From Thermococcus sp. (GTDB lineage Archaea; Methanobacteriota_B; Thermococci; Thermococcales; Thermococcaceae), in assembly GCA_021160985.1 (NCBI GenBank), contig JAGHBN010000151.1, positions 1 through 36,840 of the forward strand: a stretch of DNA of 36,840 nt. The letters run 5' to 3'. This document shows, in pieces, positions 2,320-31,360 of this stretch. Each line of letters opens with the position of its first letter. The stretch's first letter is position 1. The notes under the pieces were generated by a model. The model was not told the DNA's origin. It did no database searches and saw only the letters and a program-made list of their open reading frames with translations. The position numbers and the translations under genes are program-made.

Positions 2320-2850
2320 CTAATACTGCGCTACCTCTGCTCCCGGGATTTCTACCCTTATCCCCATGAGCTCTGCCTCGCCCTTCAGTCTTAGATAGTG
2401 CGTCCACTCGACATCGGCGAGGTATTTGTAGACTTTTCGAGCGTTCTCATCCTGCGTGATCTCGGCGAGCCTCTCGTAGAGCCTCTTAGCTATCAGCTCG
2501 GTTTCCATAGCTATTTTCAGGACGTAGGGTATGTTCTCCGGGTCTTCGAGGGCCCTCGCAAGGACTTCAGCCTCAATGTAAGGCAGGTCAATCTTTTTGG
2601 GCTCTTCACCGTAGGTGCGTACATAGATCCGCTTAAGCGTGTTTCCGTGTTCTTCTGACTCCCTGGCAAGGTCCATGAAAGTTCCGATAAGGCTCGCCGG
2701 AAGACGGAGCTCCTCGGCCTTTTCGGCCAGCTTCCAGTAAATCTTTGCCTCTTCGTACTCACCAAATATCCAGTAGGCAAGGACTTCTTTTTCGCTCAGC
2801 TTCGAGAGCATTCTCTCAAAATCGGCCAGAACTTTTTCAAGGTCTTCCAT
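2320..2850 (-). CDS. Ferritin-like (rubrerythrin-type four-helix) protein, paralogue 1
   Basis: This 176-residue, all-helical protein of the ferritin/rubrerythrin superfamily is one of three tandem paralogues here. It has a first half with EYEEAKIYWKLAE and ESEEHG, and a second half with AMETELIAKRLYE and DVEWTHY. The latter is a normal ExxH di-iron motif, while the equivalent first-half motif has Ser at the expected Glu position (E-S-x-x-H), as in both sister genes. Such proteins usually bind a di-iron centre and act in peroxide detoxification or iron handling; the substrate is not predictable here. Its own promoter is likely: GTATAAAA on the minus strand at about 2869-2878 lies only some 20-28 bases before the ATG, and no Shine-Dalgarno site is visible, suggesting a leaderless or very short-leader mRNA. 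Confidence 0.8.
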   Translation of the reverse strand: MEDLEKVLADFERMLSKLSEKEVLAYWIFGEYEEAKIYWKLAEKAEELRLPASLIGTFMDLARESEEHGNTLKRIYVRTYGEEPKKIDLPYIEAEVLARALEDPENIPYVLKIAMETELIAKRLYERLAEITQDENARKVYKYLADVEWTHYLRLKGEAELMGIRVEIPGAEVAQY

Positions 2851-2948
2851 TTTGATTCGCCGAAGTTTTTATACATCATAATAGACTTAAAAGTTTCTGC
2901 TAAAGAAGTCAATTCCCGAAAATTCGAAAAACGAAAAAAGACTCTGTT

Positions 2949-3431
2949 TCAGGTATCAACATTTTTGCCCTCCAAAAGGCGCAGAAGAGCCTCGTAGTGG
3001 CCCCTCTCAATATCGGCCAGGCTAAGGTATATTCTCCTTAATTCCTCGTCCCCGCACTCCTCCGCCAGCTTCCTGTAAATCGTCTCCGCAAGTTTCTCGC
3101 TCTCGAGGGCCACTTTGATGACATCCTCCAGGTCTTCGACCTTCCAGAACTTGCCGAAAACGTTGAGGGACTCGACGTTTGGGACGTTCACTTCGACGAG
3201 CTCGTCGCCGTACCGCTCGCGATATATCCTGTAAAGCTCGTCTCCATGCCCCTTGGACTCGTCGCCGAGCCTCTTAAAAGTCAGAACTACTTCTTCCGGG
3301 AGGCCAAGCTCCCCGGCCCTCTCTGCAAGCTTCCAGTAGATTTCAGCTTCCTCGTATTCGCCTCTAATCCAGTAGCTCAGGAGTTCGCGCTCATTGAGCT
3401 TTCTAATCTCGTTCAAGATTTCGACAACCAT
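2949..3431 (-). CDS. Ferritin-like protein, paralogue 2
   Basis: This 160-residue ferritin/rubrerythrin-superfamily protein is closely related to its two neighbours. The shared motifs are EYEEAEIYWKLAERA, DESKGHGDELYRIY, ALESEKLAETIYRKLAEE and DIERGHYEALLRLLE. The final motif carries a standard ExxH iron ligand pair (ERGH); the first-half motif reads ESKGH, again with Ser where ExxH would have Glu. The ATG at 3431 follows the stop of paralogue 3 by two bases, with a GGTGATT ribosome site overlapping that stop, so these two genes form one transcript. The likely role is di-iron redox or oxidative-stress chemistry near the hydrogenase; this is inference from family and context. Confidence 0.78.
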   Translation of the reverse strand: MVVEILNEIRKLNERELLSYWIRGEYEEAEIYWKLAERAGELGLPEEVVLTFKRLGDESKGHGDELYRIYRERYGDELVEVNVPNVESLNVFGKFWKVEDLEDVIKVALESEKLAETIYRKLAEECGDEELRRIYLSLADIERGHYEALLRLLEGKNVDT

Positions 3432-3433
3432 GT

Positions 3434-3913
3434 TTAATCACCCAGCAGTTCGTATTCCTTCTTCAGGGCCTCATAATGCCCCCTCTCAACCTCGGCGAGC
3501 TTGAGGTAGAGCTCCCTCAGGCGTTCGTCATCAACTTTCTCGGCCAGCGCTTTGTAGGCCCCCGTTGCCATCAGCTCGCTCTCCATTGCAGTTTCAAGCA
3601 CTTCTTTAACTTGATCGGCGCGCTCAAACTTCTCGAGGACGGGAAGGACCTCCAGCGGCGGAATTTCGGTCGAAGGCTCCCCTCCAAAGGACCTCCTTAA
3701 ATGCCTTGTTAGCTCTTCGGCGTGCCTTTCGGAGTCCCTGCTGAGCTTAAGAAAGGTCTCAACGAGGTTCTCCGGAAGCCCAAGATTTTTAGCCCTTTCA
3801 GCAAGCTCCCTGTAGAACTCCGCCTCCTCCCTTTCGCTTGCTATCCAGTAGGCCAGCGCTTCTTCATAGCTTATCTTCTGAAGCCTCTCGATGACCTCTT
3901 CAACGTCCAGCAT
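3434..3913 (-). CDS. Ferritin-like protein, paralogue 3
   Basis: This 159-residue ferritin/rubrerythrin-superfamily protein is the first gene of a two-gene transcript with paralogue 2. Its helices carry EREEAEFYRELAERA, RDSERHAEELTRHL, AMESELMATGAYKALAEK and EVERGHYEALKKEYE. The second-half ERGH is a canonical ExxH motif, and the first-half motif is D-S-E-R-H. Compared with its neighbours it has a short extra loop rich in Pro and Glu near the middle (EPSTEIPPLEV). The ATG at 3913 is preceded by GGGGAT, and a TATA-like AAGCTTATTAGG lies on the minus strand around 3944-3955. No rubredoxin domain is present, so this is not a classical rubrerythrin. Confidence 0.78.
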   Translation of the reverse strand: MLDVEEVIERLQKISYEEALAYWIASEREEAEFYRELAERAKNLGLPENLVETFLKLSRDSERHAEELTRHLRRSFGGEPSTEIPPLEVLPVLEKFERADQVKEVLETAMESELMATGAYKALAEKVDDERLRELYLKLAEVERGHYEALKKEYELLGD

Positions 3914-18645: not shown

Positions 18646-19482
18646 ATGACAGAACGAAAAAAGCTCAAAATCTACATCCCCGGCGTTAAATTCCCCTCAA
18701 TCTCGCTCACCGGGAGCTACTGCTTCCTCAACTGCGCCCACTGCGGGAGGCACTACCTTGAGGGCATGAAGAAGCCCAAGAAGAGGGAACTCGTTGACTT
18801 CTGCCTCAACCTTGAGCGCTCCGGAGGTTTGGGCTGTCTGCTGAGCGGAGGTATGGACTCCCGCCTGAAGGTGCCAATCGACAAGTACGCAGACGAGCTG
18901 AGGGAGATTAAGGAGAAGACCGGTCTCAAGCTCAACGCCCACGTCGGCTTTATCGGGGAGGAAGACCTGGAGTGGCTGAAGTACGTTGATGTCGTTTCTC
19001 TCGACTTCGTTGGAGACGAAGATGTCATACGGCGCGTTTACAGGATAGGCAAGACAGTTGAAGACTACCTGAGGATAGTCGAGCTCCTGACAGAAAACGG
19101 AATCCGCGTGGCGCCCCACATAACCATTGGCTTGGACTTTGGGAAGATTCACTGGGAGTACAGGGCAATAGACCTGCTCACCCAGTATCCGATAGACGTC
19201 CTCGTGCTGGACGTACTCATACCGACGAAGGGAACGGAGATGGAGAGCGTTCCAAAGCCTAGCGTTAAGGAAAGCCTTGATGTCGTGAAGTACGCGCGCA
19301 AGCATTTCGATGGAGAGATAAGCATAGGCTGTATGCGTCCCACCGGACAGTGGAGGCTTGAGTTCGATAGAGGGGCAGTCCTGGCAGGAGTTGACAGGCT
19401 GACGAACCCGCCGAGGAAGGTCATCGAGTGGGCAAAAAGTGTGAGGGACGTCGAGATAATCTACGAGTGCTGTGTTATGTGA
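18646..19482 (+). CDS. Radical SAM protein
   Basis: This 278-residue radical S-adenosylmethionine enzyme of unknown substrate has the cluster-binding motif CFLNCAHC (Cx3Cx2C) near residues 26-33, soon after a conserved N-terminal strand (KLKIYIPGVKFPS). Later features are a GGMDS segment in place of the usual GGE motif, barrel strands such as LKLNAHVGFIG, and a Cys-rich end (IIYECCVM). No SPASM extension is present. ATG 18646 follows GAGGTGAGC. The gene is convergent with an unknown minus-strand gene, overlapping by 8 bases. A truncated duplicate of its 5' end lies just upstream. Confidence 0.75.
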   Translation: MTERKKLKIYIPGVKFPSISLTGSYCFLNCAHCGRHYLEGMKKPKKRELVDFCLNLERSGGLGCLLSGGMDSRLKVPIDKYADELREIKEKTGLKLNAHVGFIGEEDLEWLKYVDVVSLDFVGDEDVIRRVYRIGKTVEDYLRIVELLTENGIRVAPHITIGLDFGKIHWEYRAIDLLTQYPIDVLVLDVLIPTKGTEMESVPKPSVKESLDVVKYARKHFDGEISIGCMRPTGQWRLEFDRGAVLAGVDRLTNPPRKVIEWAKSVRDVEIIYECCVM

Positions 19483-27025: not shown

Positions 27026-27096
27026 TACGCACCACCGGAAAGGTTTAATAGGGCCCGGGATATAACCTTTTCGCGAGAACCAAGCGGTGAGTGCCG
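27026..27096. promoter_or_regulatory. Overlapping divergent promoters
   Basis: The 71-bp spacer holds a plus-strand TATA (GGTTTAATA, about 27041-27049) for the regulator and a minus-strand TATA (TTATATCC, about 27058-27066) for the adenosine-kinase-like gene. They lie back to back, so occupancy of one probably hinders the other. The plus-strand ribosome site GCGGTGAG ends just before 27091. Confidence 0.55.
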
Positions 27097-28014
27097 ATGC
27101 CGGAGCCCCTTATGGAGGAGCTGAATTTTCTGGTTACACTCCTGGAAAAGTACCCCCTCGAGAGCCTAAAGAAGATAGCGGAGAGCGAGGGGATGGATTA
27201 TTACAAACTCAAGAGGCTCTACGATAAGTATTACGGGAAGTACGTAACCGTCAGCGCCATGTACAACATAAGGAAGATAGGCCTCAGGAGTTTTGTCGCC
27301 TTTATGAGCGTACCCTCCTCCTCACTGAAGGAGACTGCGATGAAAATCTCCCAAAATCCCTTTGTGCCATACATAAACCCCGCCTTCGGCTTTAAGAACG
27401 GCCTTTCAATTCTCCTGCACGTGCCCGCTGACCAGGTCGGCCTCATAGACGAATTCATGAGCCGGTACTCCGATGACTACGAGTACTATGAGATTAGAGG
27501 TTATCCCCCCTCCCACGACGACAACTTTGGGGAGTGGAACCTCAGCTACGAATATGCTATCCTCATGGACATCCTCAAGTGGAACGCCAGGACGCCGATA
27601 ACACAGATAGCCCAAGAAATAGGAAAGACGAGACCGACTGTCAGATACATGATAAACAGACTGAAAGAAGAGGGCATCCTCATCTCGTTCACCCCCCTTA
27701 TAGACATGAACGTGCACGACAGGGGGGTCATAGGGATCACAAAAGAGCTGGATGATACCGTTCTGGAAAGATTTAAGGACTATGAAATAACCGTAGGCCT
27801 CCTCCCGGGGCACGGCTACTTCCTCGAGTGGTTCTTTTCGTCACAGGAAGACCTGGGGACGAAGATTATGGAGTTCAGCCAGTACGTTGATAAAATCCTT
27901 GTCGAGTACTTCGACAAAACTTTCAAGGAGATGAACGACAGGCAGCTCGTAAAGAGATATCAGAGGATGGTAAAAAAGGATGGGAGCGGCTACTACCCAA
28001 TTACGAGCTTTTAG
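27097..28014 (+). CDS. Two-HTH transcriptional regulator, AsnC-like
   Basis: This 305-residue DNA-binding protein has an N-terminal HTH-like region (SLKKIAESEGMDYYKLKRLYDKYYG) and a central domain (about 45-150) of unknown ligand specificity. A second, clearer winged HTH is TPITQIAQEIGKTRPTVRYMINRLKEEGIL, followed by a C-terminal RAM-like region. This layout occurs in archaeal Lrp/AsnC-like regulators. ATG 27097 is chosen because the GCGGTGAG ribosome site is then well spaced; GTG 27091 would lie too close. It converges with the SPASM-domain gene, overlapping by 4 bases. Targets are unknown; the inverted repeat at 28999-29029 is one candidate site nearby. Confidence 0.75.
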   Translation: MPEPLMEELNFLVTLLEKYPLESLKKIAESEGMDYYKLKRLYDKYYGKYVTVSAMYNIRKIGLRSFVAFMSVPSSSLKETAMKISQNPFVPYINPAFGFKNGLSILLHVPADQVGLIDEFMSRYSDDYEYYEIRGYPPSHDDNFGEWNLSYEYAILMDILKWNARTPITQIAQEIGKTRPTVRYMINRLKEEGILISFTPLIDMNVHDRGVIGITKELDDTVLERFKDYEITVGLLPGHGYFLEWFFSSQEDLGTKIMEFSQYVDKILVEYFDKTFKEMNDRQLVKRYQRMVKKDGSGYYPITSF

Positions 28015-28943
28015 AGCAGCATTGGGCAGTATTCCATGCCGTCTATATCCCCAGTGGCCTGGTACTCCAGGGCCCGGCAGTCGTGACAGATGTATTTGAA
28101 CGGACAGGTGGCACAGGTTGGTATATTGTCCTTCGTCATCCTCCAGAAACTCTTCAGCATCTTTTTCTTCAATACGTCCTTGATACTATCCCTTTTCATA
28201 TCTGCAACTACGTAGTTCCTGAGCAGGGGGCACGGAAGAGCGTAGCCGTCAGCCGTTACGGCAAGGGTTCCTGCCAGGCAGACGTGGTAATCCTCCACGC
28301 TTGGGTTCAGCACCCTCCTGACCTCTATGACGTTGAAGTCGAGCCGCTTCGCAGAGCCTGGAAAGAGCACGTCGAGGTAAACCTCCCCCTGAAAGTTCAC
28401 ACAGCTTTCCTTGAGGTTCTTGAACTCGTATCCTGGAACTGTGATCAGCGCACCGTGAACCCCTTCAAGTTCCTCAAGCTTCCTGATGTTCTCCTCGGAG
28501 TACTCAAGCTCCACCACAGTTCTGACGCCCTCCACGGGCTTAACTTTATCAATGTCCTCGAGGAGGACAACGGCATAGACCTCTGGAACACCTATCTCAA
28601 CGGCATAAGCGGCCATGGAAAGAAGGTAATCAACGTTATCGTAGTTTGTGAGCCAGAGTTCCCCACCGTTTAAGTCCCTGAACTCCCTTATCAGCTCCTT
28701 TACGCGTTCAACACTCAGGGGGTCCCTTCTCAGTATGAACCTGTTGTTTCCAATGCAGCCTATTGACCTGGGTATGCCCGTGACCTCCGAGAACTTTCCC
28801 TTTCCAGCCCCAAGCTGAAGTATAAGCCTCTCCAGTTTTCCTGAGTGAGGCCTGTTGGCCCAGGGTGGTTTTGCCACGGCCACTATGTTTGGTGAGATTC
28901 CAGCAGGAACAAAGGTAGATGACTCATAACTCACCTTCTCCAC
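28011..28943 (-). CDS. SPASM-domain protein lacking the radical SAM cluster motif
   Basis: This protein of about 311 residues has a barrel-like N-terminal two-thirds and a clear SPASM domain at the end: HVCLAGTLAVTADGYALPC, CATCPFKYICHDC and EYC, eight cysteines suited to auxiliary [4Fe-4S] clusters. In the N-terminal part I find no CxxxCxxC, only an isolated Cys (SIGCIGNN). So it should not cleave SAM by the usual mechanism, or the family has diverged. A TATA box at 28975-28984 (minus) predicts transcription starting near 28950, so the long frame from 29042 is not the gene start. GTG 28943 after GGTGGTG is my choice; GTG 28949 or 28952 are possible. It neighbours moaE, but a role in pterin-cofactor chemistry is only suggested by context. 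Confidence 0.65.
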   Translation of the reverse strand: MEKVSYESSTFVPAGISPNIVAVAKPPWANRPHSGKLERLILQLGAGKGKFSEVTGIPRSIGCIGNNRFILRRDPLSVERVKELIREFRDLNGGELWLTNYDNVDYLLSMAAYAVEIGVPEVYAVVLLEDIDKVKPVEGVRTVVELEYSEENIRKLEELEGVHGALITVPGYEFKNLKESCVNFQGEVYLDVLFPGSAKRLDFNVIEVRRVLNPSVEDYHVCLAGTLAVTADGYALPCPLLRNYVVADMKRDSIKDVLKKKMLKSFWRMTKDNIPTCATCPFKYICHDCRALEYQATGDIDGMEYCPMLL

Positions 28944-28974
28944 ATGCACCACCGTACTGAAAAAGGAGAAATCC

Positions 28975-29029
28975 GTATATATACTTTTTCTATTCGGATT
29001 TTGCATACCTCTTTGTATAGTATGCAAAA
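28975..29029 (-). promoter_or_regulatory. SPASM gene promoter with upstream inverted repeat
   Basis: The TATA element GTATATATAC spans 28975-28984. About 14 bases further upstream is a perfect 10-base inverted repeat, TTTTGCATAC (28999-29008) and GTATGCAAAA (29020-29029), with an 11-base spacer. A site upstream of TATA would suit an archaeal activator; it also lies just after the moaE stop. Confidence 0.6.
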
Positions 29030-29038
29030 AATGAAAAA

Positions 29039-29467
29039 TCACCTATCGGGGATAGCCCTTTCCCCCTCAATCCAGAAGACACCTTCATCCGTGACTTCCC
29101 TCTTCCATACGGGAACCCTGTGTTTAACCTCGTCCACCGCCCACATACAGGCCTCGAATGCCTTCTCCCTGTGGGGAGAGACAGCTATAACGAGAATCGT
29201 GTCCTCTCCGACGGGGAGCTCCCCAACGCGGTGCCAGATAAGCATGTCAATAATCCCGAACTTCTCCAGGGCCTCTTTCCTTATCTTCTCCATCTCGTTC
29301 AGGGCCATTTCCTCATAAACCTCATATACCAGTTTCTTCACCGTTTTACCCCTGCTGTGTTCCCTTACTCTGCCGAGAAACACCACATACGCTCCAGCTT
29401 CCCTGCAGGAAACATAAGAAAGGGCTTCATCAACGCTGAACCTATCCTCAGTAACCCTGACCTTCAT
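29039..29467 (-). CDS. moaE: Molybdopterin synthase catalytic subunit
   Basis: MoaE, with MoaD, converts precursor Z (cyclic pyranopterin monophosphate) to molybdopterin, which in Thermococcales mainly carries tungsten for aldehyde oxidoreductases. Signatures are AYVVFLGRVREHSRGKTVKKLVYEVYEEMALNEM, IDMLIWHRVGELPVGEDTILVIAVSPHREKAFEACMWAVDEVKHRVPVWKRE with the catalytic Lys region, and the WIEGE end. The start ATG 29467 has a GGGGTGGTT site; the in-frame GTG at 29485 is upstream of it. A moaD-like gene and a MoeB/ThiF-like gene lie within 2 kb on the same strand but in a separate unit. Confidence 0.92.
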   Translation of the reverse strand: MKVRVTEDRFSVDEALSYVSCREAGAYVVFLGRVREHSRGKTVKKLVYEVYEEMALNEMEKIRKEALEKFGIIDMLIWHRVGELPVGEDTILVIAVSPHREKAFEACMWAVDEVKHRVPVWKREVTDEGVFWIEGERAIPDR

Positions 29468-29558
29468 CCAACCACCCCTAAACACATACCGCAGAGCCCT
29501 ATTAACATTATCCCAAAAGGTTTAAGTCCTGGGGGAGATATCCTCACCGGGTGAAAGA

Positions 29559-30401
29559 ATGAGAAAAAGGCTCCTCGCATTCTTCCTCATACTCCTAATT
29601 GGGGTCGCAGGCGGCTGCCTTGGAGATTCTAACTCAACGACATCCACCACGCCGCCAACCGAATCCAGCAGCAGCTCCATCCCAACACCCACCAAAACCA
29701 CCACTACCACGAGCCAGAACCCAATTGAAGTTCTCAAAACCTCCCTCGAAGAAATAGAAGAGTTCACCTACCTGGGCAGAACCAGCATACACATGAACGT
29801 AACCGTTCTCATGGGCAACCTCAGTCAGAACAACACCATAGCCCTCTCGATGCTGGAGAGCGGGTACATAGATTTTACGTCCACTGAGGCTGTAATAAAC
29901 ACCACCACCATAACCGAGCCCGACAACACCACCCTGAGGACGGTAAGAATCATAAAGGACGGGAAGACTTACCTCAAAACAACGATAGGGGCCGGAATTA
30001 GCTCCCTGAACGTTACTGAGAACACCTCACCCTTCATCTGGAATTACAACCCGGCCTCCCTTGCCAGGAAGTACATAACCGAAAATCCCGACGAGGTCAT
30101 CAGAAACGGTGAAACCACCGAACTAACATACACTCTAAGCTGGCAGGACGTTAAGGCGCTCGCGATACTTTACCTTGCCGTCACAGAGGATACCGGAATA
30201 GAGATAAAGGGCGGAAGACTCACCCTGACCTTCGAAGGAGGAGAACTCAAAGGCGTGGAACTGGAGTACACCGTTGTCACTACCAGCGTCGTCCAAGATC
30301 CCATCCTCGGCCAGATGACAATAAAAATCAGCGCCAAGGGCCTCAGCAGCTACGAGATAACCTCTATAAACAAAAAGATGAATGTGGAGACCCCTACCTG
30401 A
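29559..30401 (+). CDS. Secreted lipoprotein of unknown function
   Basis: This 280-residue exported protein has a signal peptide ending in a lipobox-like LIGVAGGC (Cys20). It continues with a Ser/Thr/Pro-rich linker (about residues 23-52) typical of surface proteins tethered away from the membrane. A beta-rich domain with many NxT/S sequons follows (for example NVTVLMGNLSQNNT). The domain contains repeated short strands like those of LolA/LppX-type lipid-binding folds, but I cannot assign a family. ATG 29559 follows GGTGAAAGA. It converges with the MoeB/ThiF-like gene with an 8-base overlap. Confidence 0.72.
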   Translation: MRKRLLAFFLILLIGVAGGCLGDSNSTTSTTPPTESSSSSIPTPTKTTTTTSQNPIEVLKTSLEEIEEFTYLGRTSIHMNVTVLMGNLSQNNTIALSMLESGYIDFTSTEAVINTTTITEPDNTTLRTVRIIKDGKTYLKTTIGAGISSLNVTENTSPFIWNYNPASLARKYITENPDEVIRNGETTELTYTLSWQDVKALAILYLAVTEDTGIEIKGGRLTLTFEGGELKGVELEYTVVTTSVVQDPILGQMTIKISAKGLSSYEITSINKKMNVETPT

Positions 30402-31092
30402 GATCAACCACATCGAAGGTGTTGAATGCCAGATCCACTATCAGAAACCTGTTCAGAAGGGGCTCCCCGAGCCCCGTCAGCAGTTTTATCGCCTCTAAGA
30501 CCTGTATCGATGCAACAGCTCCGGCCGTTGCCCCGAGTATTGGAAACTTCCCCTCTTTTTTCCCAGCGTTCGGGAATATCTCCCGGAGACTCTTAGTTAC
30601 CCCCGGAACTATTGTCGTTACCTGACCAAAGGTGCCCTCCACGGCACCGTGAACTAGGGGAACCCCTTTTCTGTGGGCGTAATCGTCGAGGAGAAATCGG
30701 GTCTCAAAGTTGTCGAGGCAATCGACTATCACGTCAACGCCGTCGAGAACCTCATCAACGTTTTCCTCCGTTAGCCTGCCCACGAACGTCTCTATCTTGA
30801 TGTCAGAGTTGAAGCGCTCGAGCTTCCATTTGGCGGACAGAGGCTTTGGATTCTTTCCAATATCCTCCTCCCAGTGGAGTATCTGCCTGTTCAGGTTGCT
30901 GAGCTCCGGCGTTTGTTCGTCTATAAGGAGTATTGTTCCCACCCCTGCAGCCGCCAGGTAGTACGCAACAGGGCTTCCAAGACCGCCGACTCCAACCACA
31001 GCCACTTTGGAGCCCTTGAGCTTCTCCTGACCCTCCGTTCCAAATATCATTATCTGCCGGTCGTACCTTTCGAGTTCCCTCTCGCTCAGCAT
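30394..31092 (-). CDS. MoeB/ThiF-family adenylyltransferase (E1-like)
   Basis: This 232-residue E1-like enzyme adenylates the C-terminal Gly-Gly of a ubiquitin-like sulfur carrier, here most likely the MoaD-like protein encoded directly upstream. Motifs: YDRQIMIFGTEGQEKLKGSKVAVVGVGGLGSPVAYYLAAAG (nucleotide-binding GxGGxGSP), ELSNLNRQ (Arg finger region), VIVDCLDNFETRFLLDDYAHRKGVPLVHGAVEG, and GVLG-like ILGATAGAVASIQVLEAIKLL. The two CxxC zinc motifs of E. coli MoeB and ThiF are missing; the only cysteine is in DCLDNF. ATG 31092 is one base after the MoaD stop region; an in-frame GTG at 31104 would overlap moaD. Confidence 0.88.
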   Translation of the reverse strand: MLSERELERYDRQIMIFGTEGQEKLKGSKVAVVGVGGLGSPVAYYLAAAGVGTILLIDEQTPELSNLNRQILHWEEDIGKNPKPLSAKWKLERFNSDIKIETFVGRLTEENVDEVLDGVDVIVDCLDNFETRFLLDDYAHRKGVPLVHGAVEGTFGQVTTIVPGVTKSLREIFPNAGKKEGKFPILGATAGAVASIQVLEAIKLLTGLGEPLLNRFLIVDLAFNTFDVVDLR

Positions 31093-31093
31093 T

Positions 31094-31360
31094 TTAACCA
31101 CCACTCACCGGCGGGAAGAGGGCAACTACGTCCCCGTCCTCGAGCATCTCATCAAAGCGAACGTAGCGGCCGTTGCGCGAGACGTTGACGTCAGCCAAAT
31201 CGTCATCCTCAGCGAATACTTCGTTTTTCAAAACAGGGTGCCTCTCTCTCAGAATATCGATGAGTTCTCTAACCGTTATCCCATCAGGAACCTCAAGCTC
31301 CTCCTCGCCCTTTCCGACAAGGGAGCGGTAGCGGGCAAAATACCTTAACTTGATCCTCAT
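31094..31360 (-). CDS. moaD: MoaD/ThiS-family ubiquitin-like sulfur carrier
   Basis: This 88-residue beta-grasp protein ends in PPVSGG, the diglycine that is thiocarboxylated by the E1-like enzyme. The fold signature is IKLRYFARYRSLVGKGEEELEVPDGITVRELIDILRE and LEDGDVVALFPPVSGG. With moaE it can form molybdopterin synthase; in archaea such proteins (SAMPs) can also modify proteins or serve tRNA thiolation. ATG 31360 follows GGTGGTG. It is coupled to the adenylyltransferase gene, whose start is one base after this stop. Confidence 0.88.
   Translation of the reverse strand: MRIKLRYFARYRSLVGKGEEELEVPDGITVRELIDILRERHPVLKNEVFAEDDDLADVNVSRNGRYVRFDEMLEDGDVVALFPPVSGG

Follow-up and report, generated by a model that had tools for sequence, protein, structure and literature searches.

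A conserved pseudo-radical-SAM/SPASM protein encoded beside molybdopterin synthase genes in Thermococcaceae

Does a protein that carries a complete SPASM domain, but not the CxxxCxxC motif of radical SAM enzymes, owe this combination to a sequence error, to decay or to a replacement of the missing part? The question is raised by a gene in a 36,840-nucleotide stretch of Thermococcus sp. DNA (the window), which is contig 31 of a 192-contig, 81% complete assembly of a Thermococcaceae-type genome.

An intact gene with a SPASM domain and without the SAM-cluster motif

The reading frame and coordinates given in the original prediction were right, and the gene and its C-terminal domain are placed as follows:

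28011–28943, minus strand: pseudo-radical-SAM/SPASM protein, 310 aa, GTG start, intact
28026–28280, minus strand: SPASM domain, residues 222–306, with seven invariant cysteines (Pfam/NCBIfam profiles)

The mechanical open reading frame reaches further upstream, to 29042. The stretch 28943–29042 holds a palindrome, BRE/TATA elements at ∼28990–28976 and GGTGGTG directly before the GTG at 28943. The extension is thus promoter sequence, so 28943 is the likely start, the N-terminus is likely complete, and a hidden upstream coding part was ruled out. No frameshift was found near 28700–28943, and orthologues that are 45–75% identical align end to end. All 70 orthologue loci inspected lack CxxxCxxC and near variants of it, also in the in-frame sequence upstream. 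Orthologues with an intact motif, which would point to a local error, were looked for in these loci and none was found; together with the end-to-end alignment, this rules out a sequencing error or frameshift as the cause of the missing motif.

The set of SPASM cysteines is complete, as had been claimed (C222, C238, C277, C280, C286, C289 and C306, invariant in 26 diverse orthologues). An N-terminal loop adds one more invariant cysteine, C63, which makes eight in all. The protein matches both Pfam PF13186 (SPASM, E = 1.8e-7) and NCBIfam TIGR04085 above their cut-offs. The SPASM motif is CX9-15GX4C-gap-CX2CX5CX3C-gap-C. The cysteines of the 310-aa protein are spaced CX10GX4C-X38-CX2CX5CX2C-X16-C, so that motif and profile both identify a SPASM domain, save for CX2C in place of the textbook CX3C. 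The same CX2CX5CX2C...C spacing is found in the heme b synthase AhbD and in NirJ2 (PMC10452713), which give a weak SPASM match but, unlike the 310-aa protein, keep CX3CX2C and perform radical chemistry. Across 26 members, Pfam detected SPASM in all and Radical_SAM in none, and the first 215 residues of the protein gave no Pfam match even at E = 10. Without CxxxCxxC, the protein falls outside the catalytic radical SAM superfamily: the auxiliary-cluster domain has been kept and the classical motif lost (profile matches above cut-off; 70 loci).

Predicted fold and the N-terminal loop

The AlphaFold2 model of the window protein, calculated with 26 relatives, reached a pLDDT of 80 and a pTM of 0.83. 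It shows a strand, a long conserved loop, alternating β/α units up to six and then the SPASM domain, that is, a (β/α)6 barrel followed by SPASM. In a library of viral predicted structures, radical-SAM proteins ranked first (E = 3.7e-5, probability 1.00, TMq 0.54). Fold searches of the PDB with the whole protein and with the barrel only returned nothing at E ≤ 0.001, with generic TIM barrels preferred, and the sole match in a PDB sequence search was the SPASM part of anSME (E = 0.003). Comparison of the barrel profile with radical-SAM profiles was weak (P = 0.0033 versus 0.45 for the reversed control), and a global profile alignment with radical-SAM/SPASM proteins was discarded, as it was driven by SPASM and its N-terminal register was unreliable. 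Considering the model and the viral-library matches on one side, and the lack of a significant PDB match and the weak barrel profile on the other, radical-SAM ancestry appears likely, short of proven.

Two conserved elements stand out in the N-terminal part:

28743–28871, minus strand: loop, residues 25–67, with invariant C63 (orthologue alignment; location after β1 from the predicted model)
28638–28652, minus strand: LTNYD (N100, Y101, D102) at the end of predicted β2 (alignment, profile, model)

The loop has the consensus KPPW...H.GKLERLILQLG.GKG.FSE..GIPRSIGC.GNN in the orthologue alignment. Mean majority identity is 82% for residues 25–67, 70% for SPASM and 54% for the remaining barrel. 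The N-terminal part, which the original prediction overlooked, is therefore no decayed barrel and contains the strongest conservation in the protein. Since conservation peaks where the SAM-cluster loop would be, the motif was replaced, not merely lost. In this family, a different, strictly conserved motif has taken the place of the radical centre on a radical-SAM-like scaffold, a case in which loss of CxxxCxxC need not equal decay.

In radical-SAM proteins, the SAM-binding GGE is expected at the position of LTNYD, at the end of β2. Conservation of LTNYD at this position and universal retention of the protein would fit a true enzyme whose active site is new, built from the replacement loop, C63 and the SPASM cluster, and which may still use SAM or another nucleotide. 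If GxxxSxxC of the alignment is read in register, C63 would correspond to the third cysteine of CxxxCxxC. However, this register comes from the weak profile match described above, and no substrate or reaction is known, so we consider such an enzyme unlikely.

Putative ligands of the auxiliary clusters

The Aux I ligands of anSME are C255, C261, C276 and C330 (PMC6231123), and for AhbD the proposed ligands are C223, C256, C274 and C324 for Aux I and C312, C315, C321 and C342 for Aux II (PMC10452713). By analogy, C277, C280, C286 and C306 of the 310-aa protein would supply all four ligands of a [4Fe-4S] Aux II, and C222, C238 and C289 would bind Aux I with three cysteines only. The orthologue alignment contains no further conserved cysteine in the linker upstream, so Aux I would have either an open iron or a non-SPASM ligand, for which C63 and the invariant H287/D288 are candidates.

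The original suggestion was an iron-sulfur protein for electron transfer or a scaffold. On this reading the protein would have no role in sulfur transfer and might, for example, carry electrons from ferredoxin to a pterin or tungsten enzyme or back. The retention of the auxiliary-cluster domain agrees with this, and intermolecular electron transfer via the clusters of radical-SAM proteins has been proposed (PMC10470005). However, it is the N-terminal loop and not the cluster domain that is most conserved, which suggests binding of a substrate or partner; Aux I seems to be one ligand short, which would be odd for a pure wire, and there is no known partner. An electron-transfer or scaffold protein is thus a doubtful reading.

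Distribution and relation to known SPASM families

Orthologues are present in 92 of 94 Thermococcaceae genomes, including all 74 good ones; the two genomes without an orthologue are 75–80% complete. A search of 21 further genomes from the same phylum gave no match at a threshold of 1e-8, a profile search in a wider set of 298 archaeal genomes returned no full-length relative, and a scan of GTDB contigs with two peptide patterns gave no loci outside Thermococcales. These searches found no distant full-length relatives beyond Thermococcaceae, the matches being only SPASM parts of larger proteins; among those fetched, the better-scoring ones retain CxxxCxxC. Within the genome itself, the closest relative by SPASM domain is a radical-SAM/SPASM paralogue of ∼560 aa (L101-type), but it keeps the motif as CNFRCKHC, and no similarity was found across the first 215 residues of the 310-aa protein. 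Literature searches with the guessed T. kodakarensis locus tags TK2113–TK2116, pseudo-rSAM and grasp-with-spasm found nothing. A real, unstudied and conserved Thermococcaceae family of pseudo-radical-SAM/SPASM proteins, and no sequencing artefact, is therefore well supported.

The expectation that such a protein would be of a new type was not supported. NCBIfam already lists curated families whose members have SPASM but no radical SAM, so this family is new, yet not the first of its kind. TIGR04150 (pseudo_rSAM_GG), TIGR04347 (pseudo_SAM_Halo) and TIGR04304 (GeoRSP_SPASM) are named precedents without the motif; TIGR04150 and TIGR04304 score 20.1 and 13.8 bits with the window protein, over the SPASM part only, and TIGR04347 does not match. 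TIGR04193 (SPASM_w_grasp), whose name points to a SPASM protein from a system that has no radical SAM, shares the domain but matches residues 216–297 only and scores 55.6 bits where the cut-off is 175; its N-terminal half is unlike that of the 310-aa protein, and neither an ATP-grasp partner nor a precursor peptide was noticed among the conserved neighbours of the latter.

Pterin-cofactor neighbourhood and a possible role in tungstopterin synthesis

The neighbours had been described as pterin-cofactor genes, and this was borne out by three genes upstream:

29039–29485, minus strand: MoaE, molybdopterin synthase large subunit (Pfam)
30394–31104, minus strand: ThiF/MoeB-type E1, counterpart of T. 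kodakarensis TK2117 (Pfam/NCBIfam; PMC11323500)
31094–31360, minus strand: MoaD/ThiS-type ubiquitin-like sulfur carrier (Ubl) ending in ...VSGG, counterpart of UblB/TK2118 (PMC11323500)

Between moeB and moaE, on the plus strand (29559–30401), lies a lipoprotein-like gene that is conserved in many Thermococcus loci and has no clear Pfam family.

The gene is linked to molybdopterin synthase genes across the family: moaE stands directly upstream on the same strand in 71 of 80 loci (some of these represent the same genome twice), including the putative Pyrococcus, where the other neighbours differ. It is not adjacent in genera g2 and g6, nor beside one of two gene copies found in genus g4 (copy B, see below). 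Loci without a private promoter have the tight order moeB-moaE-target; co-transcription with moaE as a general rule was ruled out by the private promoter that separates the two genes. MoaA was found in all 31 sampled genomes, which excludes its replacement by the 310-aa protein and indicates that the latter replaces no known step. In T. kodakarensis, TK2118 and TK2117 form an operon, the tungsten cofactor of GOR requires TK2118, and about half of the molybdopterin derivative is made independently of Ubl, from a sulfur source that is unknown (PMC11323500). The gene is a hitherto undescribed part of the core genome in a family of model archaea, and it adjoins genes for the tungsten cofactor, whose sulfur source is partly unknown (PMC11323500).

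The gene neighbourhood is what points to the reading that we favour, tentatively and at somewhat less than even confidence: the protein may assist tungstopterin synthesis as an Fe-S helper that acts at the step of molybdopterin synthase, probably under the control of an HTH regulator. It would perform no 5′-deoxyadenosyl chemistry; an open-site Aux I cluster would bind sulfide or a thiol, and sulfur or electrons would pass to MoaE or the MoaD-type Ubl, or else the cluster would hold an intermediate. A more specific form, which we consider rather unlikely, is that a former radical-SAM barrel has turned into a cluster-based enzyme for sulfur insertion, or another step, in tungsten-cofactor synthesis, with the loop, C63 and the under-ligated Aux I as its active site and a regulator that serves mainly this gene.

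A private promoter and a convergent HTH regulator

The regulatory elements of the locus are:

28999–29029, no strand: palindromic operator TTTTGCATAC-N11-GTATGCAAAA, the only exact match in the genome
28976–28990, minus strand: BRE/TATA GAAAAAGTATATATA of the gene's own promoter
27091–28014, plus strand: convergent HTH regulator, 307 aa (HTH_24, weak Lrp-type matches)

The upstream sequence of the pseudo-radical-SAM/SPASM gene is conserved across genera (TCCATTTTTTgcanACTactnttAgTaGTntGcAAAATCgGaATAGAAAAAGTATATATA). When 14 genomes were searched for the operator element, 12 had it, invariably upstream of this gene and in 11 of the 12 as a single copy, and the reversed control gave no match. 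In one genome (G014), a second operator-like site lies before a 276-aa lipoprotein-like gene (L141:2587, plus strand).

The convergent HTH gene is present in 70 of the 74 good genomes. In genus g4, five genomes have both the operator and an intact regulator and eight have neither; seven of those eight lack the regulator gene and in the remaining one, G078, it is broken (Fisher P = 0.0008, phylogeny ignored). In the putative Pyrococcus, the operator is kept and the regulator is located elsewhere. The operator and the convergent regulator are paired in evolution, and the HTH protein is probably a dedicated regulator of the pseudo-radical-SAM/SPASM gene, which would be the single gene under its control. 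This predicted pair of one operator and one regulator is directly testable, and both T. kodakarensis and Pyrococcus are genetically tractable. Next to the regulator, an adenosine-specific kinase gene (PF04008; 26537–27025, minus strand) is conserved, in the putative Pyrococcus (L136) as well.

Two gene copies in genus g4 and a peptide operon

In g4, copy A follows moeB-moaE and has no operator, and copy B lies beside the regulator and has a diverged operator; in a quick tree, the two form separate clades. Each of the g4 genomes inspected retains at least one intact copy: G077 has an intact copy B and a broken copy A (split frames, L045:4968–5764), and G078 an intact copy A and a remnant of copy B. 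Two genes, by eye methylthioadenosine phosphorylase-like and amidohydrolase/deaminase-like, are divergent from the regulator that adjoins copy B in G074 and G077 (L149:5504–7610 and L040:2874–4979).

A RiPP-like operon, composed of a 37-aa peptide (MEQTKPVYDMSLKVGGGIVEPYDKWCAQCLINIPLPF), a PqqD-radical SAM/SPASM protein and an ABC ATPase with permease, was found in G076 (L043:7974–12119), G078 (L138, minus strand) and G047 (L148, minus strand). The operons of G076 and G078 each lie behind an operator-like promoter and are divergent from the regulator, which hints at a role other than tungstopterin synthesis. Together with TIGR04193 being the best NCBIfam match in all 26 members, this would suit a partner in peptide maturation, comparable to the SPASM proteins that belong to grasp-with-spasm or GeoRSP systems. 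However, that match covers the SPASM part only and stays below its cut-off, and only 3 of 94 genomes have the maturase of the peptide operon whereas the 310-aa protein is universal; in G047, the operon stands elsewhere, behind another promoter and without the operator. The operon therefore looks like an accessory insertion, and a role as RiPP partner is improbable. Least probable is a redox or Fe-S sensor acting as co-regulator with the HTH protein at its own operator, for which the single operator place per genome and the co-evolving regulator could speak, because g4 lineages without operator and regulator keep the protein intact and the regulator is thus dispensable for its role.

A remnant of the 37-aa peptide is present in G080 (L131). 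Elsewhere in the window, three tandem genes at 2320–3913 (minus strand) look by eye like ferritin/rubrerythrin-type genes, and a gene at 18646–19482 (plus strand) encodes a lipoyl synthase of the LipS1 family, above the NCBIfam cut-off.
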